This document shows positions 29,817 through 49,988 of a DNA stretch of 64,000 bases, one piece after another. This DNA is from Magnetospirillum gryphiswaldense MSR-1 v2 (GTDB lineage: Bacteria > Pseudomonadota > Alphaproteobacteria > Rhodospirillales > Magnetospirillaceae): the NCBI RefSeq assembly GCF_000513295.1, contig NC_023065.1, positions 620,001 through 684,000 of the forward strand, written 5' to 3'. Within the stretch, counting starts at the first letter, position 1; each line of letters begins with the position of its first letter. The notes under the pieces were generated by a model, which was given only the letters and a program-made list of their open reading frames with translations, was not told where the DNA came from and made no database searches. Made by a program: the position numbers and the translations under genes.

Positions 29817-29846
29817 TCCAGTGCGGCTGAAATTAGGCTATCTAGT
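29817..29846 (+). promoter_or_regulatory. candidate promoter-like motif ggctatctagt
   Basis: The string ggctatctagt near 29834 recurs on the other strand upstream of the secreted Ala-rich gene (about 28832-28842), and a shorter ggctatagt lies upstream of the export lipoprotein gene. All are within about 75 bp of a start codon. It may be a shared -10 region; no good -35 box is visible. The surrounding gap (29617-29896) is AT-rich and holds no gene I can support. Confidence 0.3.
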
Positions 29847-29896
29847 CATCATACCAAATCCAGACAAAGCAAGTGCATCCATATGGGAAACGTCGG

Positions 29897-30565: not shown

Positions 30566-30675
30566 GCGCGGATCACGCCCCATCGTCTTGGGAAGGGGGG
30601 GCTCTTTCGACCGTGTGCGCAAAAGATCGGAGGAGCATTTTGGGGCGTTATTATTGCGCCAAAGTTGTCGTGATC

Positions 30676-30702
30676 TTGACAGGAAGGCGAAAGGGATATA
30701 AC
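30676..30702 (+). promoter_or_regulatory. candidate promoter before the export beta-barrel gene
   Basis: TTGACA (30676-30681) and TATAAC (30697-30702) with a 15-bp spacer, about 120 bp before the gene. The spacer is shorter than optimal. A 17-mer shared with the asnB upstream region lies just downstream (30720-30736). Confidence 0.35.
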
Positions 30703-30824
30703 CAGAAATGATGGTGCTTTGCAATTTCTGGTTTGCCTCTTTAGCCTTTGGGATTTCCCAAGTGGCGCATGGTTGTCGGATGATGTTGTTGCCAAGTGGT
30801 CGTGGGCTAGAAGGGTTAGAAGTG

Positions 30825-32150: not shown

Positions 32151-32164
32151 CGGATTAAACGGAT

Positions 32165-34399: not shown

Positions 34400-35039
34400 G
34401 CTGCGCCGTGGCGAGCGCCGCGCCTTGTTGGTGCTGGCCGTGCTGGCCGTCGTGCTTGCGTTTGCGGCCATCCCGCGCCTGATTGCCGGCACCTTGCTGG
34501 CCTTGGCTCCGGGCGTGCATTCCGACGGGCTTTACCCACAACCAGAGGAATGGGCGGCGACCGAGGAGTTTCTCGCCCGGGCCGAGGCATGGCAGGCATC
34601 GACCGAAATCGGTCGCTATAGGGCTTTGGTCCGACATTTGGCCAAGGCGCCGGACGAGCGGGCGGGATTGGAAAAGCTGTTGGCGCAAGCGCCGCTGCTC
34701 CCTGAACAATGGTTGTGGTTGGGCCAGATTCTGGCACGGACCGATCCGGCCCAGGCCATCGCTGCGTGGCGGATGTCGGTTTATAATGCCCGGGTCTATC
34801 CGTCGATCATGGAATCCCGCCTTGATCTCGGCTTGGAGTTAAAACCCGAGATGGGGGCCGAGGATCAAGGCTTGCTCGATGATCAGTTTCGGCTGTCTTA
34901 TGTGGTGCGTCCGGCCCAGGTTCAGCAAATTTTGGCGCAACAGCGCAATCTCATCCACCGGGGCTATTTTGCTCGTGTCGTCAAGAACCTGAGTGACGCC
35001 GACATGGACGCTATCATGCGCATCCATGTTCTTCACTGA
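34374..35039 (+). CDS. membrane-anchored protein of unknown function, coupled to the Wzc gene
   Basis: About 221 aa with one N-terminal transmembrane helix (ALLVLAVLAVVLAFAAIPRL) and a periplasmic helical domain containing LAQAPLLPEQWLWLGQILA and QAIAAWRMSVYNARVYPS, which looks like TPR-type helices. It overlaps the 3' end of the Wzc gene by about 25 nt (start 34374 or 34383). Position suggests a helper of polymer assembly; no family assignment is offered. Confidence 0.6.
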   Translation: MRAMAKTPELRRGERRALLVLAVLAVVLAFAAIPRLIAGTLLALAPGVHSDGLYPQPEEWAATEEFLARAEAWQASTEIGRYRALVRHLAKAPDERAGLEKLLAQAPLLPEQWLWLGQILARTDPAQAIAAWRMSVYNARVYPSIMESRLDLGLELKPEMGAEDQGLLDDQFRLSYVVRPAQVQQILAQQRNLIHRGYFARVVKNLSDADMDAIMRIHVLH

Positions 35040-36403
35040 TATGCTTTTGCGGACCACGACTGGCTATAGCCAATCCCGAGAAGATAGGCGAATAAGGCCG
35101 CCAGGGCGGGTATTTGCACGGTGAAATCGATCATGGCCTGTAAACCCAGCAACGTCGCCGCCGCCACGGCCAGGGCCGGGTAGATCTGGTCCTGGCGGCG
35201 ACGGACAAGACCGGCGCAACAGCCGGCTATGGGGATAATCACGGCGGAAAGCAGGCACAAACCGGCGGGCCAGCCCAGATCCATAATCACTTCTTCCCAC
35301 GAATTATGCGCATGATTGTAAAGGACCGGGCGTGGCAGGCTGGTATCGCGATAGGGCATGATGGCGCTGGTGAAAGTGCCCAATCCATGTCCAGTCAGCG
35401 GGGCGTCGCCAATGGCGATCCAGGTCAGGCGCATCAGATTGGGGCGGTCGCCGGTCAGGTCGCCTTCGCCGCTCATGCGGGCCAGGGTGATGTCGCCATC
35501 GGCCAGCACTGCGGCTCCGGCTAGGCCGATCAGGACCAGCAGCAAGGCCAGGGTCTGGCGCAGGCGCACCAGGCGCCCGATGGTGGCGGCAATCAACAAT
35601 GCCAAGCAGCCTGCCCCGGTAACGAGAAAGGCGCCGCGTGAATGACTGGCCAGGACCGCCAGCCACAGGAATCCCGAAGCGATCAGCCAAGGCACGGTGC
35701 GGGCCAGCAAGCGTTCAATCCGTTCGCTGGTGCCGATGGAGGGGCGTTGTGCAGCCGAGCGGTGGATGGCCAGGGCAAGACAGGCGAGGACGCCGATCCC
35801 GGCAAAGGCGCCAAAGGCGGCGCGACCGACAAAGGTGCCGGTAGCATCACCCTGATAGGCCCATTTTTTCATCCACAAAATGTAGTCAAGTTCGATTAAC
35901 TGGCAAAACAAGGCATAAGCACCATAAACCAGCACGGCGACGGCCACGCTTTTCAGGCCCCAGGCGGCGCGATGGCGTTGGCGCCCTAACTGGGTTGCCA
36001 AGACAAAAATCAGACCATAGGCGCCCAGGCGCATCACAGCGTGACCGGACATTTCCGGGTTGGCGGAAATGGTGGCGCCAAGCGGTCGGGACAAAGCGGC
36101 TGCCGTCTCGGTCCAAACCGGGTGCGTCCAAGACAATGGCATGATCGGCAGGGTCTGCAACACCCCCCAAGCCAAGGCCATCAGGAACAAGGTGGCGGGA
36201 AGCGCCAGCTTGGTCGCCGGCAGGCCCGGATGGCATCTGCCCCGCAGGCGGCCTACCACCCATATCAGGGTCAAGAGGGCGCTGGCCAGGGTCAGCAGGC
36301 TCCACGACCATGCCCGGTTGGCGGCCAGCGGTAAGGGCGCTAGCACAATAAGGGCGGTCAGAGCAATGAATATGCGGTCGTTGGCCGAGCGGCGATGGCT
36401 CAT
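35033..36403 (-). CDS. O-antigen ligase/polymerase-like membrane protein (Wzy/WaaL superfamily), first copy
   Basis: A 456-aa protein with about 12 membrane helices and a large late periplasmic loop containing GHGLGTFTSAIMPYR and YNHAHNSWEEVIMDLGWPAG, the H-x-x-H/N-type signature of the ligase/polymerase superfamily. It likely polymerises the repeat units. Its start overlaps the wecB stop (ATGA on the minus strand), so wecB and this gene are one operon, convergent with the Wzc operon (7-bp overlap). Confidence 0.8.
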   Translation of the reverse strand: MSHRRSANDRIFIALTALIVLAPLPLAANRAWSWSLLTLASALLTLIWVVGRLRGRCHPGLPATKLALPATLFLMALAWGVLQTLPIMPLSWTHPVWTETAAALSRPLGATISANPEMSGHAVMRLGAYGLIFVLATQLGRQRHRAAWGLKSVAVAVLVYGAYALFCQLIELDYILWMKKWAYQGDATGTFVGRAAFGAFAGIGVLACLALAIHRSAAQRPSIGTSERIERLLARTVPWLIASGFLWLAVLASHSRGAFLVTGAGCLALLIAATIGRLVRLRQTLALLLVLIGLAGAAVLADGDITLARMSGEGDLTGDRPNLMRLTWIAIGDAPLTGHGLGTFTSAIMPYRDTSLPRPVLYNHAHNSWEEVIMDLGWPAGLCLLSAVIIPIAGCCAGLVRRRQDQIYPALAVAAATLLGLQAMIDFTVQIPALAALFAYLLGIGYSQSWSAKAYQ

Positions 36404-37533
36404 GTCGGAGCACTTTCTTCCGCCATCAGGCGTTGGACGATCAAGGACGCCGCCCCACCGGTGCCGAGGGTGTCAAAGGTTCCAGTGGGCCGATGGATGG
36501 GGTGGGGGGATTGCAAAATCTTGGTAACGGCGGTGATGATGGCCTTTTCGTCGGTGCCGACCAGAATTGCGTCGCCCTCCAGCACTTCCGGGCGTTCAGT
36601 GCTGGTCCGCATGATCAGGACCGGCTTGCCGAGATAGGCCGCTTCTTCCTGGATGCCGCCGGAATCGGTCAGGATCAGACTGGCTTGCATCATCAGCCTG
36701 ACGAAGGGAACGTAACTGAGCGGCGCGATCATGCGCAACCGGGGGTGAAAGTCGCGCAGCCGGGCGACGGTGTCGGCCAGGGCCGGGTTGGGATGGAATG
36801 GAAAAACGATGTGGCAGTCGTGTTCGGCAACCAGAACTTTCAGTGCGGTCTCGACTTGGCTCAAGCGCTCGGGGGTCAGGTTCTCGCGGCGATGCAAGGT
36901 GCATAATATCAGCTTTTGATGCGGGTCCGCGGCGGTCGGAGCGATATTTTCATCGCCAAGATTTTGCGCCAGCAATAAGGCGTCAATGACTGTATTGCCG
37001 CACACCTCGATGGCTGACGGGGCGATGCCTTCGCGTTCCAGATTGTGTTTGGCGCTCGGGGTCGGTGCAAAATGCAAATGGGCTAATTGGGCGATCAGGC
37101 GCCGGTTGATTTCCTCGGGCCATGGTTGGTTGGGGTCACCGGTGCGCAGGCCAGCTTCCACATGGGCGACGCGCACGCCGTGGTGAAACGCGGCCAGGGC
37201 GGCGGCGATAGCCGAGGAGGTGTCGCCCTGGACCACCACCCAATCGGGCCTTTCCTGGTTCAGCACCGTCGACATGGCGGCAAGGACGCGGGCAACCATG
37301 TCGTTGACCGATTGGCCGTCTTGCATCAGATCCAGATTGTGATCGGCATGCAGGTGGAAGTCAGCTAGCCCTTGTGAAAGTAATTCGCGATGCTGTCCGG
37401 TCAGGCAGACCCTGACGGCAACGTCGGCGTGGCACTGCAATCGGCGGATGACCGGAGCCAGCTTGATGGCCTCGGGCCTTGTGCCGATGATGACAAGGAT
37501 ACGCACTACCCTTTTTCCGTCCCCATGCTTCAT
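36400..37533 (-). CDS. wecB: UDP-N-acetylglucosamine 2-epimerase (non-hydrolysing)
   Basis: Interconverts UDP-GlcNAc and UDP-ManNAc. Family motifs are complete: ILVIIGTRPEAIKLAPVI at the N-terminus, VVQGDTSSAIAAALAA, VAHVEAGLRTGD, CGNTVIDAL and LILTDSGGIQEEAAYLGKP. UDP-ManNAc is the donor of WecG-type transferases, and a WecG domain is encoded at 23872-25584, so the two fit one pathway. Start: ATG 37533, or GTG 37506 with an AAAGGG ribosome site. Confidence 0.92.
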   Translation of the reverse strand: MKHGDGKRVVRILVIIGTRPEAIKLAPVIRRLQCHADVAVRVCLTGQHRELLSQGLADFHLHADHNLDLMQDGQSVNDMVARVLAAMSTVLNQERPDWVVVQGDTSSAIAAALAAFHHGVRVAHVEAGLRTGDPNQPWPEEINRRLIAQLAHLHFAPTPSAKHNLEREGIAPSAIEVCGNTVIDALLLAQNLGDENIAPTAADPHQKLILCTLHRRENLTPERLSQVETALKVLVAEHDCHIVFPFHPNPALADTVARLRDFHPRLRMIAPLSYVPFVRLMMQASLILTDSGGIQEEAAYLGKPVLIMRTSTERPEVLEGDAILVGTDEKAIITAVTKILQSPHPIHRPTGTFDTLGTGGAASLIVQRLMAEESAPT

Positions 37534-37571
37534 GCCCCATATTTGGACGCCTTTTACGCAAAAGGCAAATA

Positions 37572-37588
37572 TGCAATTCTTGGTTTGC
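37572..37588 (+). promoter_or_regulatory. 17-mer shared with the beta-barrel gene upstream region
   Basis: tgcaattcttggtttgc here and tgcaatttctggtttgc at 30720-30736 differ at two adjacent positions. Both lie 55-90 bp upstream of the start of a plus-strand operon of the same locus. It may be a shared regulator site; this rests only on the repeat. Confidence 0.3.
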
Positions 37589-37642
37589 GATGGTGGGGTG
37601 ACTATTGTTGGCTCACCGGTTACTGACAGGGCTTGTGGCTAA

Positions 37643-39484
37643 ATGTGTGGAATAGTGGTCGCGTCCCTGAACAGCTCGCCGATGGAACCGCATCGCCTGG
37701 ACTTGGCCATGGCTTGTGTCGCTCATCGCGGCCCCGATGGCGAGGGGCGGGTATCGCGTCGCCACGGACGTCTGATCATGGGCCATCGCCGCCTGTCCAT
37801 CTTTGACCCGGGCGCCGGCGGTCACCAGCCGATGCTCGGTCCTAGTGGCGATTGTCTGGTCTTTAACGGTTGCATCTACAATTACCTGGAACTCCGGAGC
37901 GAGCTGATCGCTCTGGGCCATGGCTTTCGCACCGGCAGCGACACCGAGGTTGTCTTGGCGGCGTGGCGGGAATGGGGTGAAGCGGCGTTCTCGCGTTTCA
38001 ACGGCACATGGGCGCTGGCCTTGCATGACGCCGCCAGTGATCGCTTGGTGATCAGCCGCGACCGGCTGGGGGTGCGACCGCTTTACATGTTTCGCCAGCC
38101 CGGACGGATGATCCTGGCCAGTGAAATCCGCGCCGTGGTTGCCGCCTCGGGTCAGCCGGTCCGGGTCGATGCCGTTCAGGCCTTTGACTTCTTGTCCTTG
38201 GGGCTGTCCGATCACCAGGATCGGACCATGGTTGATGGCATCACTCAGGTGCCGGCAGGGGCTTTGTGGGTGGAAGATAGCCAGGGCGCCTTGACGCGGC
38301 GGCGCTATCACGATTGGCCCGAGCCTTTACCCGCGCCCGAGGCGGCGCAGGCAATCAAACACTTGCCGCGATTGCTGACCAGCGCGACCGGATTGCGATT
38401 GCGTGCCCATGTACCGGTGGCGGCGCAATTGTCGGGGGGCATGGATTCCGGCGCCGTCGCCTGGGCTATCGGCAGTCAGGCCCAGTCCATGACTGCGCCG
38501 TTCTTGGGATTTTTCTCGTATGGCTATGATCGCGGGGGCGAGGAATACAACGAGATTCAGGCGGCCCGACAGACCAGGGATCACGTGGCTGCTGCGGCTT
38601 CCTTTCACGAAGTGCGTGTCGATCCCACTCCATCGCTTGACGATATCGAGGCATTTTTGGCGGCGCAAGAAGTGCCGGTCAGCACGCCCAGCCCGGTAGC
38701 CGGTCTGCGGCTTTATCGTGCCATGCGCAAGGCCGGGGCGGTCGTCGCCTTGACTGGCGATGGCAGCGACGAATTGTTCGCGGGCTATACCCGACGCTAT
38801 TTGCCGGTGGCGTGGCGCGATGCGGTGCGTAGCGGCGCGCTGGCAGAGGGCTGGGATTATTGGTCCTCGCCCGAGTTGCATTGGCGCGACGGCTTGGCCC
38901 GTCTGGTCTGGAGCTTGCCCTTTCCGGCTCTGTCGGCGTTGATGGCGAGACGGACGCATATGGCGGTGCTGACGGATGATTTTCGCCTGTCTCATGACGA
39001 CAGGTTGCGTGATCTGGCGGTGCGTCAGAGCTTGCCTCTGGCCGAACTGGGGCGAGTTGACGCCCAAGGCGGGGCGCTGTCGCAAATCCTGCGTTACGCC
39101 GATCGCAACGCCATGGCCGTGGGCATGGAATCGCGCTCGCCGTTCCTGGATTATCGGGTGGCCGAATTGGCCATGCGCTTGCCCATGACGCTGAAAGTGT
39201 CCGGGCGCGGCGGCAAATTGCCGTTGCGTGACGCCATGGCCCCCTTCTTGCCGCCAAGGGTGATCGGAGGGGCGAAAAATCGCGGGCTGGGCCACGCCGA
39301 GCAGTTTCGTGTTGGCAGTCTGGATCTTGGTGATTTGCTGGCCGAACCGCCGAAAGCGGCGTCGGAGATGATCAATGCCGGCCGTCTGGCCAGAGCTTTG
39401 CGCCAACACCCCAGCGATCCGCGCCTATGGTGGCCGGTCTGCTTCCTGTTGTGGCTGCGTCAGGTGGAACGGCAATGGCCCTAA
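37643..39484 (+). CDS. asnB: glutamine-hydrolysing asparagine synthetase-like amidotransferase
   Basis: A 613-aa class II amidotransferase. Cys2 (MCGIVVAS) is the glutaminase nucleophile, followed by AHRGPDGEG and FNGCIYNYLELR. The synthetase domain has the PP-loop VAAQLSGGMDSGAVAWAIG and VVALTGDGSDELFAGY. In exopolysaccharide loci such proteins probably amidate uronic acids rather than make free asparagine. It is distinct from the lasso cyclase at 44521, which lacks Cys2. It starts a plus-strand run of overlapping genes that leads into the lasso locus. Confidence 0.85.
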   Translation: MCGIVVASLNSSPMEPHRLDLAMACVAHRGPDGEGRVSRRHGRLIMGHRRLSIFDPGAGGHQPMLGPSGDCLVFNGCIYNYLELRSELIALGHGFRTGSDTEVVLAAWREWGEAAFSRFNGTWALALHDAASDRLVISRDRLGVRPLYMFRQPGRMILASEIRAVVAASGQPVRVDAVQAFDFLSLGLSDHQDRTMVDGITQVPAGALWVEDSQGALTRRRYHDWPEPLPAPEAAQAIKHLPRLLTSATGLRLRAHVPVAAQLSGGMDSGAVAWAIGSQAQSMTAPFLGFFSYGYDRGGEEYNEIQAARQTRDHVAAAASFHEVRVDPTPSLDDIEAFLAAQEVPVSTPSPVAGLRLYRAMRKAGAVVALTGDGSDELFAGYTRRYLPVAWRDAVRSGALAEGWDYWSSPELHWRDGLARLVWSLPFPALSALMARRTHMAVLTDDFRLSHDDRLRDLAVRQSLPLAELGRVDAQGGALSQILRYADRNAMAVGMESRSPFLDYRVAELAMRLPMTLKVSGRGGKLPLRDAMAPFLPPRVIGGAKNRGLGHAEQFRVGSLDLGDLLAEPPKAASEMINAGRLARALRQHPSDPRLWWPVCFLLWLRQVERQWP

Positions 39485-40704
39485 GCCCTTTTGCCGCCTT
39501 TGTTGCTGAGTTGCAACAGCGCCATGGTCCCGAGGTGGACCTAGTTCGCCACGAGTTGTTTTTCCAGGGCCAAAAACGCTTTCCCGGTGGCCGGGGGGCA
39601 CTGGCCTTGGCACGCGACGCCCTGCTGTTGGCCCGACCATCCCGCCGCCAACCGCTCCCGACCGGGCTGCTGGCGGTGTTGGTCGCCACCTTGGCCGGCA
39701 GCAGTGGCTGGTCCAGCTTGGCCCGCGCCCTACCCGCCATCGCCACGGCAGGATTGACGCCGGTCGTCTTGGCCCATCCCCGGTTGGACCCGTCGTTGTT
39801 TCCAGCCGATGTGCCGGTTCTGCGTCCGGGCGGGTTGGGCTTGGCCGGGCTCGATCCGGCTGGATGGCTGGGTGGCTGGGTGGCGCAGGCCCAGGCCCGG
39901 CAAAAGCTATGGATTCGGGCCGTGGCAGGTTTGTTGGCCGACCGTCGCGGCGTGTTGGTTTTGCATAATGATTTCGACATGATGAGCACGGCCAGCCTGC
40001 ACAGCGGCTGGCCCAGCGTCTGCCTGTTGCACGGAATTCCCACTGACGAGTTCTTTCCCTGTCGGGCCGATTATCAAATTGTGTGGGGACCATCCTCAAG
40101 GCAGGCCTTTGCCGATTGCGGCGTCGCCTCTGCGCGGCTGGTGGTCGATAGTCTGGGGCGCGGTGCAGGCGATGGGGCCGGCCCGGACGGCCCACCGCAG
40201 GTTTTGGCCGTCGCGTCGCAGACCCAGGCGGTCATTTTCGGTCCGCATCTGGCAGCGCATCTGAAGGCCTTCGTGGCGGGGCTGCACCAGCTTGATCGGC
40301 GAATGGTGGTGCTTTTACATCCGCGAGAGGGCGGTCGCCATCCTTATGGAGCAGTGCCGACCAGCTTGCCTCCCCATGTCGTGTTGCAGGCGCCGCAACC
40401 TGCATTGGTTCTGGCCCATTGCTCGACCTTGGCCATCGATGCCGCCCTGGCCGGTCATTGGGTCGCTGCCGTGGAGTTCCCCCATACGGCCAATCAGGCG
40501 GCTTACGCTGTTGCAACGCCGCCATTGCGGGTGAAAAGTGCAGGAGAAGCATTTGCGCTATATGGTCGTCTGTCCGATGATGAAGCGTTTCGCAGGCAGG
40601 CAGCCATTCGGCAAAAAGCTTGGCTGAACAACACGTTTTCGCCCGAAACCGGGGGGCTTTCCCGCTTGCTTGGTAAGATTGTTCCGTCATGTCCTTTGCC
40701 TTGA
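39475..40704 (+). CDS. possible GT-B-like glycosyltransferase of the exopolysaccharide locus
   Basis: A 409-aa protein that I do not confidently recognise. The start at 39475 overlaps the asnB stop. Two Rossmann-like halves are suggested by GVLVLHNDFDMMSTASLHSG, SVCLLHGIPTDEFFPC, QIVWGPSSRQAFADCGV in the first half and VVLLHPREGGRHPYG, ALVLAHCSTLAIDAALAGH in the second; the last resembles the donor-site pattern of capsule or CDP-glycerol type transferases. Context favours a transferase acting on the repeat unit. Confidence 0.5.
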   Translation: MALSPFAAFVAELQQRHGPEVDLVRHELFFQGQKRFPGGRGALALARDALLLARPSRRQPLPTGLLAVLVATLAGSSGWSSLARALPAIATAGLTPVVLAHPRLDPSLFPADVPVLRPGGLGLAGLDPAGWLGGWVAQAQARQKLWIRAVAGLLADRRGVLVLHNDFDMMSTASLHSGWPSVCLLHGIPTDEFFPCRADYQIVWGPSSRQAFADCGVASARLVVDSLGRGAGDGAGPDGPPQVLAVASQTQAVIFGPHLAAHLKAFVAGLHQLDRRMVVLLHPREGGRHPYGAVPTSLPPHVVLQAPQPALVLAHCSTLAIDAALAGHWVAAVEFPHTANQAAYAVATPPLRVKSAGEAFALYGRLSDDEAFRRQAAIRQKAWLNNTFSPETGGLSRLLGKIVPSCPLP

Positions 40705-41957
40705 TCGTGTTGTTAACCCTGTTGATTTCCCTGGCCGATCTGACTTCGGCTTGGCTGTTTTCGTCCGATCCCGATCATTTGGGCATCGAGCTGATCCGTT
40801 TTAGTCGCGAAGGCTTGATGGTCGTGCTGGCGGCATGGGGATTGCGGGCCGCCCATCGCAGCGGGGCGTCCTTCATGTTCGCCGTGCTTTATGCGGGGGT
40901 GATCGGCGGTTACGCCGTGCTCGCTTCCGATGATCTCGAGCTCAGGGTTGTCATCGCCTCAGCCGCGAAGCTGTCCTTGCCGATTGTGTTGGTCGCGGCG
41001 GGCTATGGCAGTCTTGAAACACCCCGGCGTTTGGGCCTCTATACCTTGATCCTGGCGGCGATCGCCGGGGCCTCCACCGCTTTTGGCGCCTGGGATGTCG
41101 GGCAGACCCAGTTCTGGACCGAAACACTGCAATATGGTCACTATCTCAATGGTGTCAAAGGCATCATTTCCGGCTTCGACAGCTATTATGTCTTGCCCTT
41201 CAACTTCTTCGGCTATGAGGGAGAGCGTCGCGCCGGCGGTCTGGTGGCGGCGCCCCTGGCCCAAGGCAGCATGGTCGCCATTGGCGCCATGCTTGGTTTC
41301 GCTGTGTTGCAACGCAAGGCTTTTTGGCTGGCCCTTGGGGTCTTGCTGGTGGGCATGATCGGGGTGTGGCAAAGCGGCACCCGTGGCGCCATGCTGATCT
41401 TGCTGATCGCCGTGCCGGTATTTTTGGTCCTGAGCGGACGCGGTGGCACGATGGCCCGCAATCTGGTCATGCTGGCGGCCTTGATAGCGGGGACTTATCA
41501 GACGCTGCAATTTGTCTATTCATATTCCGCTAACTTTGAGGATGGCTCAACCATTGGTCATTTCGAGGCGTTGCAGCGGAATTTGGAGGAATTGGGCGAT
41601 GTGGCCATCGTTGGGCCGGGAATCGGCGCCTCGGGATCGGTGGCGGCCGATGAAGGCTTGGAGATGGCCGGTGGCGGTGAAGGTTCAATTTTCGCCATCG
41701 CCTATCAGATCGGTGTTCCCGGCGCGGTGATATTCCTGTGTTATTACGCGGCCATCCTGCGCAAGACCCTGCAGGCCCGGCGCTTGGGCGGGGCGACGGG
41801 CGATATCGCCTCGGCCGTCTTCGCCCTTGGGATTGGCATCATCACCACCCTGATCAGTTCCGACCATATTTTCAGCCTGTCGGGCATGGGGATATTTTGG
41901 ATTGTTCTGGGGGGGATTGTGGCCCAGGCGGATAGGGCCAAGGCTGTGCGCCCATGA
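40689..41957 (+). CDS. O-antigen ligase/polymerase-like membrane protein, second copy
   Basis: A 422-aa polytopic protein (about 10-12 helices) with GVWQSGTRGAMLILLIAVPV and a late periplasmic loop with VAIVGPGIGASGSVAADEG, typical of the Wzy/ligase superfamily. It overlaps the preceding gene by 16 nt and the next by 4 nt. Two such proteins in one locus suggest a polymerase plus a ligase, or two polymers. Confidence 0.7.
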   Translation: MSFALIVLLTLLISLADLTSAWLFSSDPDHLGIELIRFSREGLMVVLAAWGLRAAHRSGASFMFAVLYAGVIGGYAVLASDDLELRVVIASAAKLSLPIVLVAAGYGSLETPRRLGLYTLILAAIAGASTAFGAWDVGQTQFWTETLQYGHYLNGVKGIISGFDSYYVLPFNFFGYEGERRAGGLVAAPLAQGSMVAIGAMLGFAVLQRKAFWLALGVLLVGMIGVWQSGTRGAMLILLIAVPVFLVLSGRGGTMARNLVMLAALIAGTYQTLQFVYSYSANFEDGSTIGHFEALQRNLEELGDVAIVGPGIGASGSVAADEGLEMAGGGEGSIFAIAYQIGVPGAVIFLCYYAAILRKTLQARRLGGATGDIASAVFALGIGIITTLISSDHIFSLSGMGIFWIVLGGIVAQADRAKAVRP

Positions 41958-44212
41958 TCCGCGTCTTGATGGTCCATTGCGAGTTCAGGCCGCAATCGAG
42001 TGGCGTTGCCCGCCACATGGAAGGCTTGGCCCGGGCTTTGAGCGATCGTGGCGACATTGTCCTGACCATCCTGGTCCAGCGTTTAACGGAAGGTCCGGCG
42101 CGGGGCTACGAGGTGGATGGGGCCGGGTTCAAAACCTTGTTCGCGCAGATGCGACGCTGCGATGTCGTCCATGTCCATGGGGCGCGAACAGTGATTTCCA
42201 CACTGGCCTTGCGTCTGGCCCGATTGCTGGGCAAGCCGGCGGTGTTCACGCCGCATTGCTATTATCAAGGCGGCGATTGGCTAAACCGGATGAGCAAGCG
42301 CTTGTGGGATTGGGGGGTTGAACGTTCATCGCTTCATCACGCCGATGCCGTCATCTTGCTGCATTCCGGTTGGCGCCAAAGCCTGACCGAACTGGGGTTT
42401 CGTCCGCGTCGGACCGAGGTGATCCCCAATTGCATCGACGCGTCTGCGGTGCGGGATAGGCAGGTCGCCAATCCGGCGCGGCGTCTGTCGGGGCAGCCGG
42501 CCGTGTTGTCGGTGGGGCGGATCGACAAGGTCAAGCGCCTTGACGACGTCATCGGCGCTTTGCTTGAACCGGGATTGGAAGAGGCTGAGTTGCACATCGT
42601 CGGCCAAGGTGATGATCTGGTCCGTTTGCAGGCCCAGGTCATCGGTCTGGGTCTGGGCGCGCGGGTTCATTTCCTCGGCTGGCGCGACGATGACGAAACG
42701 GCGGCCATGGTCGGCGGCTGCGACGCCATGGTTCTGGCCTCGGAACGCGAAGGTTTGCCGACCGTCTTCCTGGAATCCCTGTTGGCCCGAACCCCCATAG
42801 CGGTCAGTGATATCGACGGTAACCGCGCCATAGCCGACGCGGTGGGGTGGCATCATGTTTTCACTTTGGGGGATCGTCGGGCGCTGGCGGCCTGCGTGTT
42901 GGAATGCGCCGCCGCTTCAGTGTTGCCAGCGATTGCCGATACGGTGGAGCGGCTGTTTAGCTGGCAAAGCCGGGGCGACGACGTGGCCGCCCTTTATGAC
43001 GATATCCTGCGGCAAAGACAGGCGGCGAGTTTGACCGCATTGCCGGCGCTGGCGCCTGAATTCGAAGCATTGCGGCACTGCGTCGCGCTGGCCTTGGACC
43101 CGTCGGGAAATGGCCATGCCTTGGGCCACGCTTTGGCGCGGGTGGCGGCGTGGGATGATTTCATCGGCGGGGCCGAGCGCCACAGGGTTGCGCCTCTGGT
43201 GCTTGCGGCGTTGAAGAAAATGCCCGCCGACGCTATCGCTCCTGCACGGTTGCGGGCGTTGCAGCGGCGCAATCGGCGCAACGCCTTGCGCGGTATGGCC
43301 CAGATCGCCGAGCTGGCCCGGTTGATGCGCGCGTTTCAGGACCAAGGCATCAAGGTCTTGGTGCTGAAAGGTGTGGCGCTGTCACAGCGTTTGTATGCCG
43401 ATCCGTTTCGCCGTGGCGTCGGCGACATGGATCTGTTGATCGGGAGGGCTGATTTCTTTCCCGCCCACGCCCTTTTGGTCGCAAATGGCTATGTGCGCCA
43501 AGACAGCTTGGCCACCCATCCGCCGCTTGGTGATCTGGTCGCCCTGATGAAGGATTGCGCCTATGTCCACGACGGCGGGCATGTGGTCGAGCTGCATTTG
43601 CAACTGAGCGAAAGGGACGATTGTCCCGAATGGGATTTTCCCGTGCTGTGGCGGGATCGGGCGGAAATCCGCGTGCAGAATCTGGTTCTGCCCACTTTGT
43701 CCGATCGCGTCTTGGTCCCCTATCTGCTCGCCCATGGCGCCCGCCATTGCTGGGACCGGTTGTGCTGGCTGGCTGATATAGCAATGTTGTTCAAAGACGA
43801 GGCCCTGCGATTACAGTCCCTGGACGATTGTGCGCGTTTGGGCTGGAAGAACGAAGCCGCCCACGCCGACGCGCTGATCGGATTATGGCTGGGGGAGGGG
43901 GCGACTTTAGCGCAGGTGTCGGTGCCGATGCGTTGGTTCATGCAGGCGTTCTTTTCCGACCGGCGCTGGCTTGAGCGGCCACGACGGGGGACGGCGGCCT
44001 GGATAAGCTTGGAGTTTCGGCGCCGCTTGTGGGGGATACGCCTCAGCGGCGATTGGCGCTGCAATCTCGCGGCAGTCAAACGGGCATTGCGCAATCCGGT
44101 GGATGAATCACTGATCCCCTTGCCCGCGCCCCTGACCTTCTTGTACCCGCTCTTACGACCGGTGGGCTGGGTGTTGCGCAATTTCATTTACCGCGCTCGC
44201 AGGAGGGAATGA
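41954..44212 (+). CDS. fusion of a GT4 glycosyltransferase and an NTP_transf_5-type nucleotidyltransferase
   Basis: A 752-aa two-domain protein. Residues 1-350 are a GT4 glycosyltransferase: CEFRPQSSGVARHMEGLARA, IPNCIDASAV, VLSVGRIDKVKRLDDVI and the donor-site pair in ASEREGLPTVFLESLLA (E-x7-E type). Residues about 390-700 match the uncharacterised nucleotidyltransferase family: QDQGIKVLVLKGVALSQRLY and FRRGVGDMDLLIGRADFF, with the G-D-x-D metal motif near residue 490. Stand-alone members of the latter family occur in kinase-type lasso clusters; in pseudomycoidin (Bacillus) such a protein modifies the phosphorylated peptide, as far as I recall. Here it lies 147 bp before the lasso precursor and overlaps the upstream polymerase gene in an ATGA, so it could serve either locus. 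Confidence 0.75.
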   Translation: MIRVLMVHCEFRPQSSGVARHMEGLARALSDRGDIVLTILVQRLTEGPARGYEVDGAGFKTLFAQMRRCDVVHVHGARTVISTLALRLARLLGKPAVFTPHCYYQGGDWLNRMSKRLWDWGVERSSLHHADAVILLHSGWRQSLTELGFRPRRTEVIPNCIDASAVRDRQVANPARRLSGQPAVLSVGRIDKVKRLDDVIGALLEPGLEEAELHIVGQGDDLVRLQAQVIGLGLGARVHFLGWRDDDETAAMVGGCDAMVLASEREGLPTVFLESLLARTPIAVSDIDGNRAIADAVGWHHVFTLGDRRALAACVLECAAASVLPAIADTVERLFSWQSRGDDVAALYDDILRQRQAASLTALPALAPEFEALRHCVALALDPSGNGHALGHALARVAAWDDFIGGAERHRVAPLVLAALKKMPADAIAPARLRALQRRNRRNALRGMAQIAELARLMRAFQDQGIKVLVLKGVALSQRLYADPFRRGVGDMDLLIGRADFFPAHALLVANGYVRQDSLATHPPLGDLVALMKDCAYVHDGGHVVELHLQLSERDDCPEWDFPVLWRDRAEIRVQNLVLPTLSDRVLVPYLLAHGARHCWDRLCWLADIAMLFKDEALRLQSLDDCARLGWKNEAAHADALIGLWLGEGATLAQVSVPMRWFMQAFFSDRRWLERPRRGTAAWISLEFRRRLWGIRLSGDWRCNLAAVKRALRNPVDESLIPLPAPLTFLYPLLRPVGWVLRNFIYRARRRE

Positions 44213-44250
44213 GGCCGCAGAGAACCTCGAATAGAGATGTGCTCGTCCTG

Positions 44251-44271
44251 TTGGCCGACATGCTCTATAGT
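44251..44271 (+). promoter_or_regulatory. weak candidate promoter of the lasso operon
   Basis: TATAGT at 44266-44271 lies about 90 bp before the precursor start in the only real gap (147 bp) of the region. No convincing -35 box stands at 16-18 bp. The operon could also be read from upstream. Confidence 0.25.
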
Positions 44272-44359
44272 TGTTGCTGGCTTCGGTCAGTGGGCATCGG
44301 CTGGATGATCTGCACCGTCGTTTAAGAAGTTTGTGGAACCCTTCCCTTTGGAGACAAAG

Positions 44360-44524
44360 ATGCACGATGACAAGGCGGTATCCGTGGAACAGGAATGTCG
44401 GACGGCCGTCAAGAAGCCGTGGCGAACGCCGGTTTTATCCGTTGTTGATATCGCCAGCGGTACGCAAGGTTGGATCAATCAACACCCCGCTGACGACACG
44501 ACAACGGCTTCCGGGCATTCATGA
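44360..44524 (+). CDS. lasso peptide precursor (A)
   Basis: A 54-aa peptide starting at ATG 44360 with a GGAGA ribosome site; an upstream GTG at 44333 is less likely. The leader (residues 1-36) contains WRTPVL (21-26), the position and spacing of the YxxPxL motif bound by lasso B1 proteins, with Trp for Tyr. Thr35 is the conserved penultimate leader residue, so cleavage is predicted after Gln36. The predicted core is GWINQHPADDTTTASGHS (37-54). Gly1 and Asp9 give a 9-residue macrolactam ring, leaving a 9-residue tail; Asp10 is a less usual alternative. The last residue is Ser, the known phospho-acceptor in paeninodin-type peptides, and a kinase of that type is encoded downstream. The stop overlaps the cyclase start (ATGA). 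Confidence 0.85.
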   Translation: MHDDKAVSVEQECRTAVKKPWRTPVLSVVDIASGTQGWINQHPADDTTTASGHS

Positions 44525-46437
44525 GTCTGTTTGCGGGCGTTGTTGGGTGTCCGACCATAAAGACGGTCGGAGTTCATCTTGAGAAATTTGCCGCGACATT
44601 GGATGGTGTTGGGGCAGTTTCTCCGCGGTACTGGCGGTCAAGTTCGGCGGCGCTCGTTCATCGGCAACGAATCTATACCGCGGAGGATCGATCCGAGCGG
44701 CAGCCGCTGGCCGGGGCGCGATCGGTCCTGATGTTCGATGGTCGGCTGGATAATCGCGACGACCTCATTGAGGCGTTGGGGATAGGCGGTGCTGGCATCC
44801 CAGATAGCGCTTTGGTGTTGGCGGCGCTGGAACGCTGGGGTGACGGGGCTATCGCCCGTCTGGTTGGTCCGTTCGCTCTGGCATGGTGGGACGATGGAGA
44901 TCGTCGGTTGCTATTGGCGCGGGACTCGCTGGGACATCGTGCCCTCTATCATGCCGACACTCCCGACGGCTTCGCCTTCGCCACCACGCCGCGCGCGTTG
45001 CTGGCACTGCCCGAGGTTCAGCGTCGGATCGACGAAGCCGCGATGGCGGCCTTCCTGGTTGACCTGCCGTTGCCGCCGGGAAGCACCTATTATAAGCACA
45101 TTCGGCAGATACCGGCCGCGCATGTGGCGGTCTGGCAGCCAAATAAATTTGAGTTGCGGCGGTATTGGCAACCCGATTATTCGAAGAAACTTCAATATCG
45201 GCGCGATGACGATTATGTCGAGGCTGCACGAGAGCACTTGACCCGTGCCGTGCGCAGCTGTTTGCGGACGGATCGGCCAATCGCCTCCACGCTTAGCGGA
45301 GGCCTGGATTCGACCTTGGTGGCGACGACAGCGGCTCGGCTGATGGCCCCAACGCGGCTGATGGCGCTCACCGCAATCCCGGCCGAAGGCTTGTCCTTGC
45401 CAAAGTTTGGCAAAAACCGGTTTGTCGACGAAGGTCGCTATGCCCGCTCCACCGCTGACCTTCACAATAATATCGACTTGCATCTGGTGGTGGGAACTGG
45501 CGTCCAGCGCATCGAAACGGAACCGGAGCGCATGTTCCTGTCGACGGGCTGGCCCGTGCGCAATACCTTGAACATCGGGTGGTTCACGCCGATGCGGGAG
45601 TTGGCCGAGGCCCAGGGAATAGGCGTTCTGCTTCAAGGCAGCGGCGGCAACCATACTTTGAGTTGGGATGGTATTGTGGGCCTCCGCGATGCGGCACGGT
45701 CGGGCAGGCTGGTGAGGTTGTGGCGTGAAATTTCCCATCTGGCCCGGTCCCGCGATTTATCCTTTGCACAGACCATGTGGTCTCTGGCGCTGCGTCCTCT
45801 GCTGCCGATAGCGACCCCGCAATGGTTCGACCAATTGCGCCGCCGCCCGGCGCCACCGTTAATGAATACTTTTTCAATTCATCCGAACTTTGCGACAGCC
45901 CATCAGGTTGATAGCGGTAAACGCAGTCACATGATGGGGGCAAAATTTGGGGGGGAAGAAACGGCCCGTCGCGAGGCATTGGAGCTATATCAATCTCACG
46001 CACAGGTCCGGTCCGGCTTGCGCGCGATTTACGGCTTCGATCTGCGTGAACCGCTGCGTGACTTGCGGTTACTGGAATTTTGTTTCGCTGTCCCCAGCGA
46101 CCAATATCTCCGCAATGGTGTGACGCGCTGGCTGGCGCGGCGTGTTCTGGCTGGTCAGGCACCGCCGGAAGTGGTGAGCAATCCCCAGCGCGGGGTTCAA
46201 TGCCCAGAATTCCTGAATCGCCTGTTGCCGCGTCGCGCCGAGTTTCTCGCCACCATCGAGGAATTGGAGCGCTCGCCCATGGCACGAAATTGCCTCGATC
46301 TGCCGCGGCTTAAAAGTTTAGCCCACAGCCTACCGACCGAGCCGGCCGCCGCGCATTATATTCCCTATGCCGCTGTGCTGGAGCGCGGCTTGCACGCTGG
46401 TCGATTCATCCGCTGGGTCGAGGGCGGCAACGGCTAG
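44521..46437 (+). CDS. lasso macrolactam synthetase (C; asparagine-synthetase fold)
   Basis: A 638-aa asparagine-synthetase homologue. The N-terminus is MSLFAGVVG with no Cys2, so glutaminase activity is absent, as is typical of lasso cyclases, which use the precursor amine instead of ammonia. The ATP-binding PP-loop is TLSGGLDSTLVATTA (near residue 260) and GVLLQGSGGNHTLSW lies further on. It should adenylate the Asp side chain and close the ring with Gly1. Translation is coupled to the precursor by ATGA overlap. Confidence 0.88.
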   Translation: MSLFAGVVGCPTIKTVGVHLEKFAATLDGVGAVSPRYWRSSSAALVHRQRIYTAEDRSERQPLAGARSVLMFDGRLDNRDDLIEALGIGGAGIPDSALVLAALERWGDGAIARLVGPFALAWWDDGDRRLLLARDSLGHRALYHADTPDGFAFATTPRALLALPEVQRRIDEAAMAAFLVDLPLPPGSTYYKHIRQIPAAHVAVWQPNKFELRRYWQPDYSKKLQYRRDDDYVEAAREHLTRAVRSCLRTDRPIASTLSGGLDSTLVATTAARLMAPTRLMALTAIPAEGLSLPKFGKNRFVDEGRYARSTADLHNNIDLHLVVGTGVQRIETEPERMFLSTGWPVRNTLNIGWFTPMRELAEAQGIGVLLQGSGGNHTLSWDGIVGLRDAARSGRLVRLWREISHLARSRDLSFAQTMWSLALRPLLPIATPQWFDQLRRRPAPPLMNTFSIHPNFATAHQVDSGKRSHMMGAKFGGEETARREALELYQSHAQVRSGLRAIYGFDLREPLRDLRLLEFCFAVPSDQYLRNGVTRWLARRVLAGQAPPEVVSNPQRGVQCPEFLNRLLPRRAEFLATIEELERSPMARNCLDLPRLKSLAHSLPTEPAAAHYIPYAAVLERGLHAGRFIRWVEGGNG

Positions 46438-46475
46438 GCCTAAGTCTGCGGCCTGTCCCTTTTCCCCGTCTTGGC

Positions 46476-46498
46476 GTCGGGCTTGTTGGAAGCCCGAC
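46476..46498 (+). other. perfect 9-bp hairpin between cyclase and B1 genes
   Basis: gtcgggctt and aagcccgac flank a 5-nt loop in the 174-bp gap. It lacks a T-run, so it may be an mRNA processing, stability or attenuation element rather than a full terminator. It may separate expression of precursor plus cyclase from the rest. Confidence 0.5.
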
Positions 46499-46611
46499 AC
46501 TTTGCTATCTTCTGGTCATTCATTCCTGTTCGGCCTAGGGCCGGCGTTCGCGCGGCCATCCGCGTCGTGCCGGTGCTCTTCCTGCCTAGCCAAACTCCCC
46601 GGGATTATGTC

Positions 46612-46911
46612 ATGCCAACCGTTACGCCGCACTCAATCGTCGATCAAGCCACCGGGCCATTGGCTGTCGAGGTTAGCGGCGAGGTCGTCCTGATGAGTCT
46701 CGAGCGCGGCCATTATTATGGACTGGATGACATCGGTAGCCATATCTGGTCGCAGGTCGCCCAGCCGGTGCGCGTTGCGGATTTGGTGGCGCGGCTGGCA
46801 GCCGACTACGATGGTGATCCGGCGGTGATCGAAAGCGACGTGCTCGACCTGCTGAACAGGCTGCTCGATCACGGCCTGCTCGAGCTGCGCACTCCGCCGC
46901 CCGCCGGGTAA
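46612..46911 (+). CDS. lasso leader-recognition protein (B1; PqqD/RRE fold)
   Basis: A 99-aa PqqD-like RiPP recognition element: VVLMSLERGHYYGLDDIGSH then IWSQVAQPVRVADLVARLAA and DVLDLLNRLLDHGLLEL, the beta-hairpin plus winged helix layout. It should bind the leader (WRTPVL) and present the precursor to the B2 peptidase. The ATG at 46612 follows the 174-bp gap; the frame is open further upstream but without family similarity. Confidence 0.88.
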   Translation: MPTVTPHSIVDQATGPLAVEVSGEVVLMSLERGHYYGLDDIGSHIWSQVAQPVRVADLVARLAADYDGDPAVIESDVLDLLNRLLDHGLLELRTPPPAG

Positions 46912-46913
46912 GG

Positions 46914-47834
46914 ATGGTGTTCACCGATCGCCTGTTGTGCGGCTGGCGGGTGCGCAGCGATCTGCCTCTGCCTGATCTGCTGTCCTGGAATGGTGACGAC
47001 CGCGACCCGGATCTGCACATCCGCTTTGCCAATGTGCCTGAGACGCTGGCGGACGCGGTGCCGGCAGGACCGCTGCTGCAGATCGCCAAGGACGGCACCT
47101 GCCGCTTCGCTCTGCCGCGGGTCGCTGCCTATCTGGTGCGGCAGGGCCGCGAGATTTTGGTTCAACCTGCCCCCGGCGCGACCGACACTGCGGTGCGGAC
47201 CTTTCTGTTCGGAACGGTGTTTGGACTGCTGGCCCATCAGCGCGGCTTGGTGCCGCTGCACGCTTCCAGCGTGCGCATTGGCGATACCGCGGTGGCCTTC
47301 ACAGGCCGCTCGGGGACCGGCAAGTCGACCCTTGCCGCCGCCTTTCTGCATCACGGCTACGAGGTCCTCGCCGACGACGTGACGGTCGTCGATGTGACGC
47401 GGCCCGGCTGTCCGATGGTGCTGCCGGCCTTTCCGCGCCTGAAGCTGTGGCAGGACGCCTTGGCGGCGCTGGAGATAGACACCGCCCGGCTGGAAGCCGT
47501 GCGGCCCGAGCTGCAGAAATTCGCCTTGCCGATTGAACAGGGATTTCACTCCGCGCCGCTGCCTCTGGCGGCGGTCTATCACCTGGAAACGGTTCTCGAC
47601 CCGCGTCACGCCGCGCTGGAACGGTTACGCGGCCTCAAGGCGGTGATGGCCCTGCAGGGCCATGTCTACCGTATGACCATGCTGAGCCGCATCAGTGCGC
47701 CTATCGCCGTGCACGTCGCGGCAACGCAGTTGGCGACAAGGTTGGGGGCGCATTGGCGGCTGGCTCGCTGTCACGACCACGGCGATACCGAAGCGATCAT
47801 TGCCGGCATCGTCGCCCGCCAGGCCGCGTCATGA
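46914..47834 (+). CDS. lasso peptide kinase (HPr kinase-like)
   Basis: A 306-aa P-loop kinase: VPLHASSVRIG, the Walker A TGRSGTGKSTLAAAFL (Lys137) and the acidic YEVLADDVTVVD region, the pattern of HPr-kinase-like enzymes. In paeninodin clusters such a kinase phosphorylates the C-terminal Ser of the precursor; here the precursor ends in Ser54. It begins 2 bp after the B1 stop and its own stop overlaps the sulfotransferase start. Confidence 0.82.
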   Translation: MVFTDRLLCGWRVRSDLPLPDLLSWNGDDRDPDLHIRFANVPETLADAVPAGPLLQIAKDGTCRFALPRVAAYLVRQGREILVQPAPGATDTAVRTFLFGTVFGLLAHQRGLVPLHASSVRIGDTAVAFTGRSGTGKSTLAAAFLHHGYEVLADDVTVVDVTRPGCPMVLPAFPRLKLWQDALAALEIDTARLEAVRPELQKFALPIEQGFHSAPLPLAAVYHLETVLDPRHAALERLRGLKAVMALQGHVYRMTMLSRISAPIAVHVAATQLATRLGAHWRLARCHDHGDTEAIIAGIVARQAAS

Positions 47835-48667
47835 GTGGCATCGTTTGGCTGGCCTCGTATCCCAAGTCCGGCAACACTTGGCTACGTTTGATGCTGAGCA
47901 GCCTCGAACGGGGCGGGGCGGCGCCGGATTTCAGCGCGTCCGCCGGGTTTGCGCCCATTGCTAGCGGCCGCCATGCCTTCGACGAGGCGCTTGGCGTGGC
48001 CTCTGCGGACCTGACCGAGGATGAGATCACCTGTCTGCGCCCGCGCTTGTATGAGATTCAGGCGGCGGAAACGGTCCAGCCGCTATTGCGCAAGGTGCAT
48101 GATGCGTGGACCCTGACGCCCGCCGGCGAACCGCTGTTTCCGCCGGCCGCAACCCTGGGGGCTGTCTATCTCGTGCGTGATCCGCGCGACATCGCGGCGT
48201 CGCTGGCCAATCACAGTAATCTGGATCTCGACGGGGCGATCGCCATCTTGGGCAATCCCGAGTTGACCTTCGCGCGCAGCCGGCACCGCCTCGACGCACA
48301 ATTGCCCCAACGTCTGCTGAACTGGAGCGGCCATGTGGAAAGCTGGCTGCTGGCGCCCATTCCGCCACCGCTGCTGTTGCGCTACGAGGATATGCTAGAT
48401 GATCCGTTGGCTGCCCTGCGCCGGGTGATCGCCCATCTTGGCTGGAGCGCCGAAGATGCCGTGCTGCGGCGCGCCGTGGCGGCGACCCGCTTCGACGCCT
48501 TGCGGCAGGCCGAGGAACACAATGGTTTCCGTGGGCGGCCGCGCCAGTCCAAGCGTTTCTTTCGCCGAGGCCAAGCCGGCGGCTGGCGTGATGAACTGTC
48601 GGCCGATCAAGCGGCACGCATCAACGCGGATCACGCAGTGGTCATGCGCCAGCTGGGATATCTTTAG
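47831..48667 (+). CDS. PAPS-dependent sulfotransferase
   Basis: A 278-aa cytosolic sulfotransferase. The 5'-phosphosulfate loop is LASYPKSGNTWLRLML (residues 8-23), the 3'-phosphate region is YLVRDPRDIAASLANHSN, and the C-terminal FRRGQAGGWRDEL matches the RxGxxGxWK-type loop. It is coupled by ATGA to the kinase gene. The core has no Tyr, so Thr11-13, Ser15, a hydroxylated residue or an added sugar would be the acceptor. Sulfation of the exopolysaccharide is the alternative. Confidence 0.82.
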   Translation: MSGIVWLASYPKSGNTWLRLMLSSLERGGAAPDFSASAGFAPIASGRHAFDEALGVASADLTEDEITCLRPRLYEIQAAETVQPLLRKVHDAWTLTPAGEPLFPPAATLGAVYLVRDPRDIAASLANHSNLDLDGAIAILGNPELTFARSRHRLDAQLPQRLLNWSGHVESWLLAPIPPPLLLRYEDMLDDPLAALRRVIAHLGWSAEDAVLRRAVAATRFDALRQAEEHNGFRGRPRQSKRFFRRGQAGGWRDELSADQAARINADHAVVMRQLGYL

Positions 48668-48790
48668 CCGCCCAATTGCGCACATCGATGCTCGGTGAAG
48701 GTCTAGGATCTGGGGAATCAGCATCAGGTTGGCCGGGATTGAAGCCAAATGCAGCGGACCTTGACTCCTATTCTACGAGTAATAAGAATA

Positions 48791-48806
48791 TGGACTGATC
48801 AGTCCA
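48791..48806. promoter_or_regulatory. 16-bp perfect palindrome upstream of the B2 part of the operon
   Basis: tggactgatcagtcca is a perfect palindrome in the 156-bp gap after the sulfotransferase gene, next to AT-rich aataagaata. It may be an operator for an internal promoter. No T-run follows, so it is not a standard terminator. Confidence 0.45.
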
Positions 48807-48823
48807 GCGCCGGAAAAACCCCC

Positions 48824-48958
48824 ATGTTGACCATCGCCCTGCGGGACAGCCTCCGCCGCAAGTCCGACGCGCTTTGTGCCGACATAGCGACCATCGAGGG
48901 TTGCGTGCTGGCGCCGTTCGTTCAACTGGTCGATCGTGGGTTGGCGGGGGTTGCATGA
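48824..48958 (+). CDS. 44-aa small ORF coupled to the B2 gene
   Basis: MLTIALRDSLRRKSDALCAD and the following 24 residues form a short, mostly helical peptide with a possible GGAAAAA ribosome site. Its stop overlaps the B2 start in ATGA, which argues for real translation (at least as a coupling leader). It does not look like a second lasso precursor: it has no YxxP motif and no Gly-x(6-8)-Asp/Glu core. Function unknown. Confidence 0.45.
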   Translation: MLTIALRDSLRRKSDALCADIATIEGCVLAPFVQLVDRGLAGVA

Positions 48959-49389
48959 TCGGTCGTGCCCGCCGCTTTTTCGCCCTGCCGCGCAACGAAA
49001 GGTTCGCTACGGCGGAAGCCATTGCAACCCTGACGATTGTTTTCCTTGTGTTAAAGACGTTGCCCTTCGCCGCGGCGATGCGGGTTTTCCGTTTGCGTGC
49101 AGGGGATGATTTGGCGCCGTTTCCCATCGACGCGACACGGGCGCGGATCGTCGCCCGGGCGGTGGGGCGGGCGGCGAGAAATTTGCCGTTCAGGGCGGTT
49201 TGCCTGCCCCAGGCGGCGGCGGCGGCGATGATGCTGCGCCGGCGCGGCCTGCCGGCGGAGGTGCGCTTCGGCGTTGCCAAGCGGGACGGCGAGGTGACGG
49301 CACATGCCTGGAGCCGCAGCGGCACCGTACCGGTGACAGGGATGGAAGGCGCCGGGGAATTCATTCAGGTGGCGAGATACGCCATATGA
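48955..49389 (+). CDS. lasso leader peptidase (B2; transglutaminase-like)
   Basis: A 144-aa B2 protein. The catalytic Cys83 lies in FRAVCLPQAAAAAMMLRRRG and His117 in GEVTAHAWSRSG. An Asp is usually found about 12 residues after the His in this family, but here that stretch (GTVPVTGM) has none, so the third triad member is missing or moved. It should cut the leader after Gln36. ATGA overlaps couple it to the small ORF before and the oxygenase after. Confidence 0.85.
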   Translation: MIGRARRFFALPRNERFATAEAIATLTIVFLVLKTLPFAAAMRVFRLRAGDDLAPFPIDATRARIVARAVGRAARNLPFRAVCLPQAAAAAMMLRRRGLPAEVRFGVAKRDGEVTAHAWSRSGTVPVTGMEGAGEFIQVARYAI

Positions 49390-49988
49390 CAGCGCCCGCC
49401 TTCATCAGCCAATTTCTGCCCCATCGCCGCCATGCTCATTGGTTAGACGCGGCGACGACGAATGCGCTGCTGGCCTACGCCGTCGACCGTCAGGCGCATT
49501 TCAAACCGTCGAAAGTGAGGGGGGAAGACGGGGACAGGGAGGTTATTTCCGATCAGCGCTCTTCGTTGCGGTTAACCGATCTGGGGGAGTTCGGACCCTT
49601 GCTGCAAGAGCGGGCGCTGAACTCGTTGGCGGAGATCTGCGCCGCCTTCAGTATGCCGCCGTTCGTGCCGAAGGGGGTGCAGGTCGAATTGGTCGCCCAT
49701 GGCGACGGCGCGCATTTCGTCCGGCACCGGGACACTTATGCAACCCCGGACGGCGCGCCGCGGCGCGTCACCATGGTGTGCTACCTGCACCGCCTCCCCA
49801 AGGCGTTTTCCGGCGGCGTCTTGCGCTATTACACCCTGGCCGGTGACGATTTCATCGACATTGAGCCGGATTGCGGCGAGATGGTCGCCTTTCCGTCCTG
49901 GGCTTGGCATTCGGTGGAACGGGTGTCAGTTCCCGGCGACGCCTTCGCCGACCATCGCTTCGCCGTCAATATGTGGGTCAGGGGCTGA
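49386..49988 (+). CDS. 2-oxoglutarate/Fe(II)-dependent oxygenase (prolyl-hydroxylase-like)
   Basis: A 200-aa double-stranded beta-helix oxygenase. Iron ligands are H114-x-D116 (HFVRHRDTYAT) and His175 (FPSWAWHSVERVS), with an Arg near residue 191 (HRFAVNMWV) for 2-oxoglutarate. The family hydroxylates Pro, Asp or Asn side chains. Candidate sites in the core are Pro7, Asn4, Asp9 and Asp10. It is the last gene of the coupled lasso operon (ATGA with B2). Confidence 0.82.
   Translation: MTAPAFISQFLPHRRHAHWLDAATTNALLAYAVDRQAHFKPSKVRGEDGDREVISDQRSSLRLTDLGEFGPLLQERALNSLAEICAAFSMPPFVPKGVQVELVAHGDGAHFVRHRDTYATPDGAPRRVTMVCYLHRLPKAFSGGVLRYYTLAGDDFIDIEPDCGEMVAFPSWAWHSVERVSVPGDAFADHRFAVNMWVRG

Follow-up and report, generated by a model that had tools for sequence, protein, structure and literature searches.

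A kinase-type lasso peptide locus with a sulfotransferase and a likely prolyl hydroxylase in Magnetospirillum gryphiswaldense MSR-1

The region 41954-49988 of a 64,000-nt stretch of Magnetospirillum gryphiswaldense MSR-1 v2 (GCF_000513295.1, NC_023065.1; G000:C1:620001-684000) is a real lasso peptide locus, and represents a variant of the kinase-type lasso pathway that had not been met before. The whole stretch is called the window below, and coordinates refer to it; the genome is a single contig of 4.37 Mb. The locus encodes a precursor (A), a cyclase (C), a leader-binding protein (B1) and a leader peptidase (B2), together with an HprK-like kinase (K), a sulfotransferase (ST) and a 2-oxoglutarate (2OG)-Fe(II) oxygenase (OX). 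A glycosyltransferase-nucleotidyltransferase fusion gene (GT-NT) precedes them. The most valuable point is OX, a likely prolyl hydroxylase whose linkage to lasso genes is associated with proline in the core peptide. The recurrent K-ST pair comes second.

We propose, with a probability of about 0.6, a proteobacterial pathway of the paeninodin type. Provided that the locus is expressed, B1 would bind the leader and present the linear precursor, OX would hydroxylate the ring proline Pro7, K would phosphorylate the C-terminal Ser18 and ST would sulfate some hydroxyl of the same tail. B2 would then cut off the leader after ...TQ, and C would form the G1-D9 ring around the tail. GT-NT may transfer a sugar onto the phosphate, as the pseudomycoidin nucleotidyltransferase does. 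All of this chemistry is predicted from sequence. There is a substantial chance that the pathway consists of A, C, B1, K, ST, B2 and OX, and that GT-NT is an exopolysaccharide (EPS) gene pair which adjoins the precursor by chance.

Genes of the lasso peptide locus

Genes were modelled by open reading frame (ORF) calling and assigned to families by Pfam and NCBIfam searches. All genes named in an earlier sequence-only reading of the window were present with intact frames. The precursor gene (44360..44524, plus strand; alternative GTG start at 44333) was read from the sequence and matched no family. Its 54-amino acid (aa) product comprises the leader MHDDKAVSVEQECRTAVKKPWRTPVLSVVDIASGTQ and the 18-aa core GWINQHPADDTTTASGHS. 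The leader contains KPWRTP, a WxxP motif, and the core has Gly1, Asp9 and a C-terminal Ser18, with a predicted ring G1-D9. The computed [M+H]+ of the lasso peptide is 1876.821; it would be 1956.787 with phosphate, 1956.778 with sulfate (a difference of 4.9 ppm between the two), 1892.816 with a hydroxyl and 2038.874 with a hexose. Membership was judged by Thr at -2 and Asp or Glu at core positions 7-9; the window precursor has both (T at -2, D9) and was the single match in the whole 4.37-Mb genome.

The C gene (44521..46437, plus strand) is Asn-synthetase-like (Asn_synthase 7.5e-29; SGGLDS at 259). Its best NCBIfam model was the lasso cyclase NF033535 (kind 'exception', 1.8e-78) with 264.7 bits, below the cut-off of 525, and we assign it as the lasso cyclase from this best-model match and the gene context. 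B1 (46612..46911, plus strand) is a PqqD-like leader-binding protein (PqqD 3e-19, NF033536 1e-18). B2 (48955..49389, plus strand) is a transglutaminase-like leader peptidase which matched the lasso B2 model NF033537 above its cut-off, the single match of this model in the whole genome. The linkage of B1, B2 and cyclase genes to the precursor and the score of B2 bear out the earlier identification of a lasso locus.

The genes from precursor to oxygenase had been described as largely ATGA-coupled. This was fair, as 4-base ATGA overlaps occur at four of the seven junctions (A/C, K/ST, o44/B2 and B2/OX), and B1 and K are 2 bases apart. It does not extend to C/B1 and ST/o44, and because of these gaps of 174 and 156 bases, respectively, the genes may be on more than one transcript. 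The 44-aa ORF o44 (48824..48958, plus strand), absent from the sequence-only reading, lies between ST and B2 and matched no Pfam or NCBIfam family. It was rejected as a second precursor, since it has no Thr with an acceptor at core 7-9 behind it and no relatives among the first-round loci. Weakly matching antisense ORFs (e.g. 46869-47609, minus strand) were disregarded as shadows of the coding strands.

The kinase-sulfotransferase pair

The K gene (46914..47834, plus strand) encodes an HprK-like kinase by E-value (Hpr_kinase_C 7.4e-6, TIGR04352 2.9e-11) with a Walker A motif, GRSGTGKS, at 131. The overlapping ST gene (47831..48667, plus strand; Sulfotransfer_1 3.5e-22) encodes YPKSGNTW, RDPRD and GQAGGW, which we take to be the 5'-phosphosulfate and 3'-phosphate binding motifs for 3'-phosphoadenosine 5'-phosphosulfate. 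Among its nearest solved chains were Teg12, Teg14 and StaL, which sulfate glycopeptide antibiotics and share the N-terminal motif with the window ST.

Relatives were searched for ST and C in 297 genomes of the order (36 positive at 1e-20 and 20 positive at 1e-50, respectively), for K in 55 genomes of the family (16 positive at 1e-25) and 385 of the class (20 positive at 1e-15), and for OX in the same number of class genomes (10 positive at 1e-12), the own genome being included in each count. Profiles of eight gene families were then run over 80 fetched regions, the window and five named contigs. The loci were located with the window's own proteins, and several could come from one genome, so that the locus counts should not be read as unbiased rates. 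K and C were both present in 57 loci, counting the window; of these, 45 had ST, 12 had OX and 18 had the nucleotidyltransferase (NT); the three occurred together in the window and L079 only. Kinase, sulfotransferase and oxygenase genes thus stand beside lasso genes in many relatives and are far from being unlinked in all of them. The gene set had been considered unusual, but gene by gene it is not: the kinase with the sulfotransferase is the common combination in the fetched loci, and the oxygenase recurs.

K was directly upstream of ST on the same strand for 55 of 66 ST genes, and ST directly downstream of K for 55 of 92 K genes (distance between the matched parts below 450 bases). By profile search, 75 precursor-like ORFs were located near the surveyed genes, of which 74 were kept, the window's included; an unlikely one with a Trp end (L122 7409-7573) was dropped. 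The profile takes in the C-terminal end and favours Ser-ending ORFs. A terminal Ser was present in 64 of the 74: in 54/58 that had both K and ST no farther than 6 kb away (window included), in 6/12 with K only and in 4/4 with neither in reach. The higher share with ST than with K only (Fisher 0.001, an optimistic value since the sequences are related), and the frequent position of ST behind K, suggest that ST acts on the same C-terminal tail as K.

Some observations argue against the proposed pathway. Both kinase matches are below the curated cut-offs, and four of the 58 precursors beside K and ST have no terminal Ser (L059, L064 and twice L085). The ORFs of window 28000-62000 (about 100 aa and upwards), to which this search was confined, included none of the ABC transporter cluster. 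IS4/5-type transposase ORFs (DUF4096, DDE_Tnp_1) on both strands lie directly 3' of the OX gene (50218-51901).

The loci L064 (8288-9987) and L085 (11248-12986) combine tandem kinases with a sulfotransferase, and their precursors are not Ser-ending. In G329, G457 and G554 (L117, L118, L120, L122, L123 and L124) we found K-ST pairs with one to three precursors and no cyclase match within the 20 kb read; the lasso machinery of these genomes may be shared in trans.

Sulfotransferase genes in lasso clusters are mentioned without a product in the sections surveyed of PMC8498205 and PMC4289311, and those of PMC13352647, PMC8776678 and PMC11705953 contain nothing on them. The kinase-coupled sulfotransferase is frequent in the fetched alphaproteobacterial lasso loci, yet has no product assigned in these sources.

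The oxygenase and the core proline

The OX gene (49386..49988, plus strand; 2OG-FeII_Oxy_3 4.7e-17) encodes a protein of the prolyl-4-hydroxylase fold. H114, D116, H175 and R191 are invariant in 23 sequences; presumably they form the HxD...H iron site and the Arg for 2OG, which together with the fold are the features by which a prolyl 4-hydroxylase was recognised. The top rows of a structural comparison were prolyl hydroxylases.

The linkage of OX was associated with proline in the core. All 20 residues were scanned as a guard against an after-the-fact choice of proline, and proline was the top residue in ring, tail and core; tail Asp (p 0.035) was lost after correction. The prediction also held in new OX loci where precursors were found. 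A different target of OX, such as Asp in the case of CanE, with a lineage effect behind the proline association, is unlikely, although far from negligible. The scan, the structural rows and the new loci all argue for proline.

In these tests, L103 and two precursors of L128 were left out as they have no recognisable ring, and rings were set by hand for L075, L079, the second precursor of L086, L099 and four new precursors. L094 comprises at least two sub-clusters, and both of its precursors were counted as OX-linked. The family-level test left out loci shorter than 12 kb (L028, L049, L073 and L075); L075 is a 3.4-kb contig whose core has PPP in the tail.

Further points speak against the proposed pathway. 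A ring proline was also present in 15 of 43 core families lacking OX and was missing from two of 17 OX-linked families (3/18 with L075). Ring borders are uncertain in several precursors; in L154 and L070, placing Thr at -2 would give a 10-residue ring, with the proline inside the ring either way. The sequences are related, so that the p-values are optimistic. In three of the seven new OX loci no precursor was found, and that of L155 was found by eye only. No lasso gene was seen in the stretch read around the OX relatives of L127, L129 and L130, and L131 had a weak kinase fragment and NT only. Further rounds of searching for OX loci, G554 (three genomes) and G390 (two genomes), yielded none beyond the known loci.

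The proline linkage of OX points to a specific and cheaply testable modification, which would be an unusual decoration for lasso peptides. Prolyl hydroxylation of lasso peptides was not described in the literature surveyed, including the available hydroxylation sections of two reviews (PMC8498205, PMC9266682), a limited coverage that does not establish its absence in print.

A different cluster, with a JmjC-type scanned member (L070; PF08007), was located near four lasso loci (L070 13773-14678, L074 12740-13741, L002 4603-5547 and L100 5375-6550). Its proteins could be a further oxygenase tailoring enzyme.

The fusion gene, the exopolysaccharide island and known systems

GT-NT (41954..44212, plus strand) joins a GT4 glycosyltransferase (GT; Glycos_transf_1 8.3e-21; about residues 1-355) to an NTP_transf_5 nucleotidyltransferase (6.6e-48; residues 356-752). 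In the NT part, K117, G118, R132, D136 and D138 (KG...DxD) are invariant in 21 sequences; a profile search of the PDB sequences gave no match up to E 0.1. A sequencing error behind the fusion was rejected, as stop codons close the other two frames at the junction while the fused one is open; with one genome, a one-base indel is still possible.

The gene lies at the end of an EPS island (20014..41957, no strand assigned), recognised by family matches and by synteny with the sibling genome G083. It encodes a beta-barrel porin-like protein (30708-32150), a Wzc-like protein (32165-34399), an O-antigen-ligase-like protein (35033-36403), WecB (36400-37533) and an Asn-synthase-like protein (37643-39484). 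The last two genes, 39427-40704 and 40689-41957, matched no Pfam or NCBIfam family. A ligase label for 40689-41957 was rejected for this reason, and the locus L105, in which a relative of this gene is the single island marker, was thus not counted as having an EPS neighbour.

Four potential tailoring enzymes had been noted for the locus. Kinase, sulfotransferase and oxygenase do occur with lasso genes, but the membership of GT-NT is uncertain. GT-NT shares 4 bases with 40689-41957, and 147 bases separate it from the precursor. The island recurs in G083, where a relative of 40689-41957 is followed, in the same order, by GT (59% identity, 352 aa aligned) and NT (45%, 354 aa aligned), two distinct genes with a 4-base overlap. 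The G083 lasso genes A, C, B1, K, ST and B2 are situated at the opposite end, about 15 kb away; no OX was seen, but the contig stops 0.25 kb beyond ST. In the window, GT and NT are fused and adjoin the precursor, so that NTP_transf_5 stands beside both lasso and EPS genes, while in G083 it is apart from the lasso genes. In G209, in G234 and on one G261 contig, the 13-20 kb read with NT contained no clear lasso gene; G234 had a single weak kinase match of 24 bits.

Membership in the pathway is favoured by the distribution of NT, which was present in 10 of 55 family genomes, namely in 10/16 kinase-positive and 0/39 kinase-negative ones (Fisher 2.7e-7, kinship not corrected for). It is further favoured by L085 and L005, where NT and lasso genes are lined up, and by the pseudomycoidin nucleotidyltransferase, which leads to a hexose on the phosphate (PMC8498205, PMC9266682). 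As a lead to lasso tailoring, the fusion is suggestive only.

The EPS setting had been considered unusual, but paeninodin-like loci of Bacilli are located in capsule or polysaccharide regions (PMC13381572) and the setting recurs in the fetched loci. In L056, L057, L061, L066 and L076, lasso genes have relatives of the Wzc-like gene as neighbours, in three of these loci together with an O-antigen-ligase-like relative. The 40689-41957 gene co-occurs with the kinase, both being found in the same two of 13 genomes of the genus. With the fused GT-NT between EPS and lasso genes, these neighbours would fit a mature peptide joined through phosphoserine to the exopolysaccharide of the island, and so displayed as a surface glycoconjugate instead of being secreted free. 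We regard this as improbable, since neighbourhood is weak evidence, the literature surveyed, as far as available, describes no peptide-polysaccharide linkage, and an ABC-transporter-type cluster (one member scanned) is present in 18 fetched loci. A remnant locus, silent or in decay, has little probability: the transposase genes right after OX, the orphan o44 and the presence of the kinase in only two genus genomes would fit, but all frames are intact and the catalytic motifs are kept. A lasso peptide with four decorations (ring hydroxyproline; phosphate, sulfate and sugar on the tail), joined by GT-NT from its phosphoserine to the island glycan as a surface or matrix component, would be a long shot.

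Phage tail-collar type genes (one cluster member scanned, PF07484), often in tandem, were found close to the lasso clusters of 11 fetched loci (e.g. L052 13655-16004, L060 15475-17447, L074 4668-8496, L093 14307-16558 and L097 3396-5116); five of these loci also contained a GNAT-type cluster, of which one member was scanned. Window 28000-62000 lacks members of either cluster.

The closest systems are those of paeninodin (Paenibacillus) and the SyanK cluster of Sphingobium yanoikuyae, which likewise have an HprK-like kinase, a precursor with C-terminal Ser and lasso genes (PMC8498205). Compared by description and not by sequence (PadeK, SyanK), the window adds the kinase-coupled sulfotransferase and the prolyl-hydroxylase-like OX, and has no ABC transporter cluster member in the range searched. 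Pseudomycoidin (Bacillus pseudomycoides; PsmK, PsmN) also involves a kinase and a nucleotidyltransferase; in the window, the NT, an uncertain member of the pathway, is fused to a GT4 domain and closes an EPS block. With PsmN, annotated as a nucleotidyltransferase, the phosphorylated Ser comes to carry one or two hexoses, and a host glycosyltransferase as the partner of PsmN could not be excluded (PMC9266682). Because the need of PsmN for a separate glycosyltransferase was left open, the GT-NT fusion is a natural lead to whether such an enzyme glycosylates alone or with a glycosyltransferase. The canucin A cluster also contains a 2OG oxygenase, CanE (PMC9266682); by description, CanE hydroxylates a C-terminal Asp, whereas the window OX has the prolyl-4-hydroxylase fold and tracks a core proline. 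Gram-positive lasso clusters likewise contain sulfotransferases without a known role, some with a kinase (PMC8498205, PMC4289311), whereas in the alphaproteobacterial loci the two form a frequent pair.
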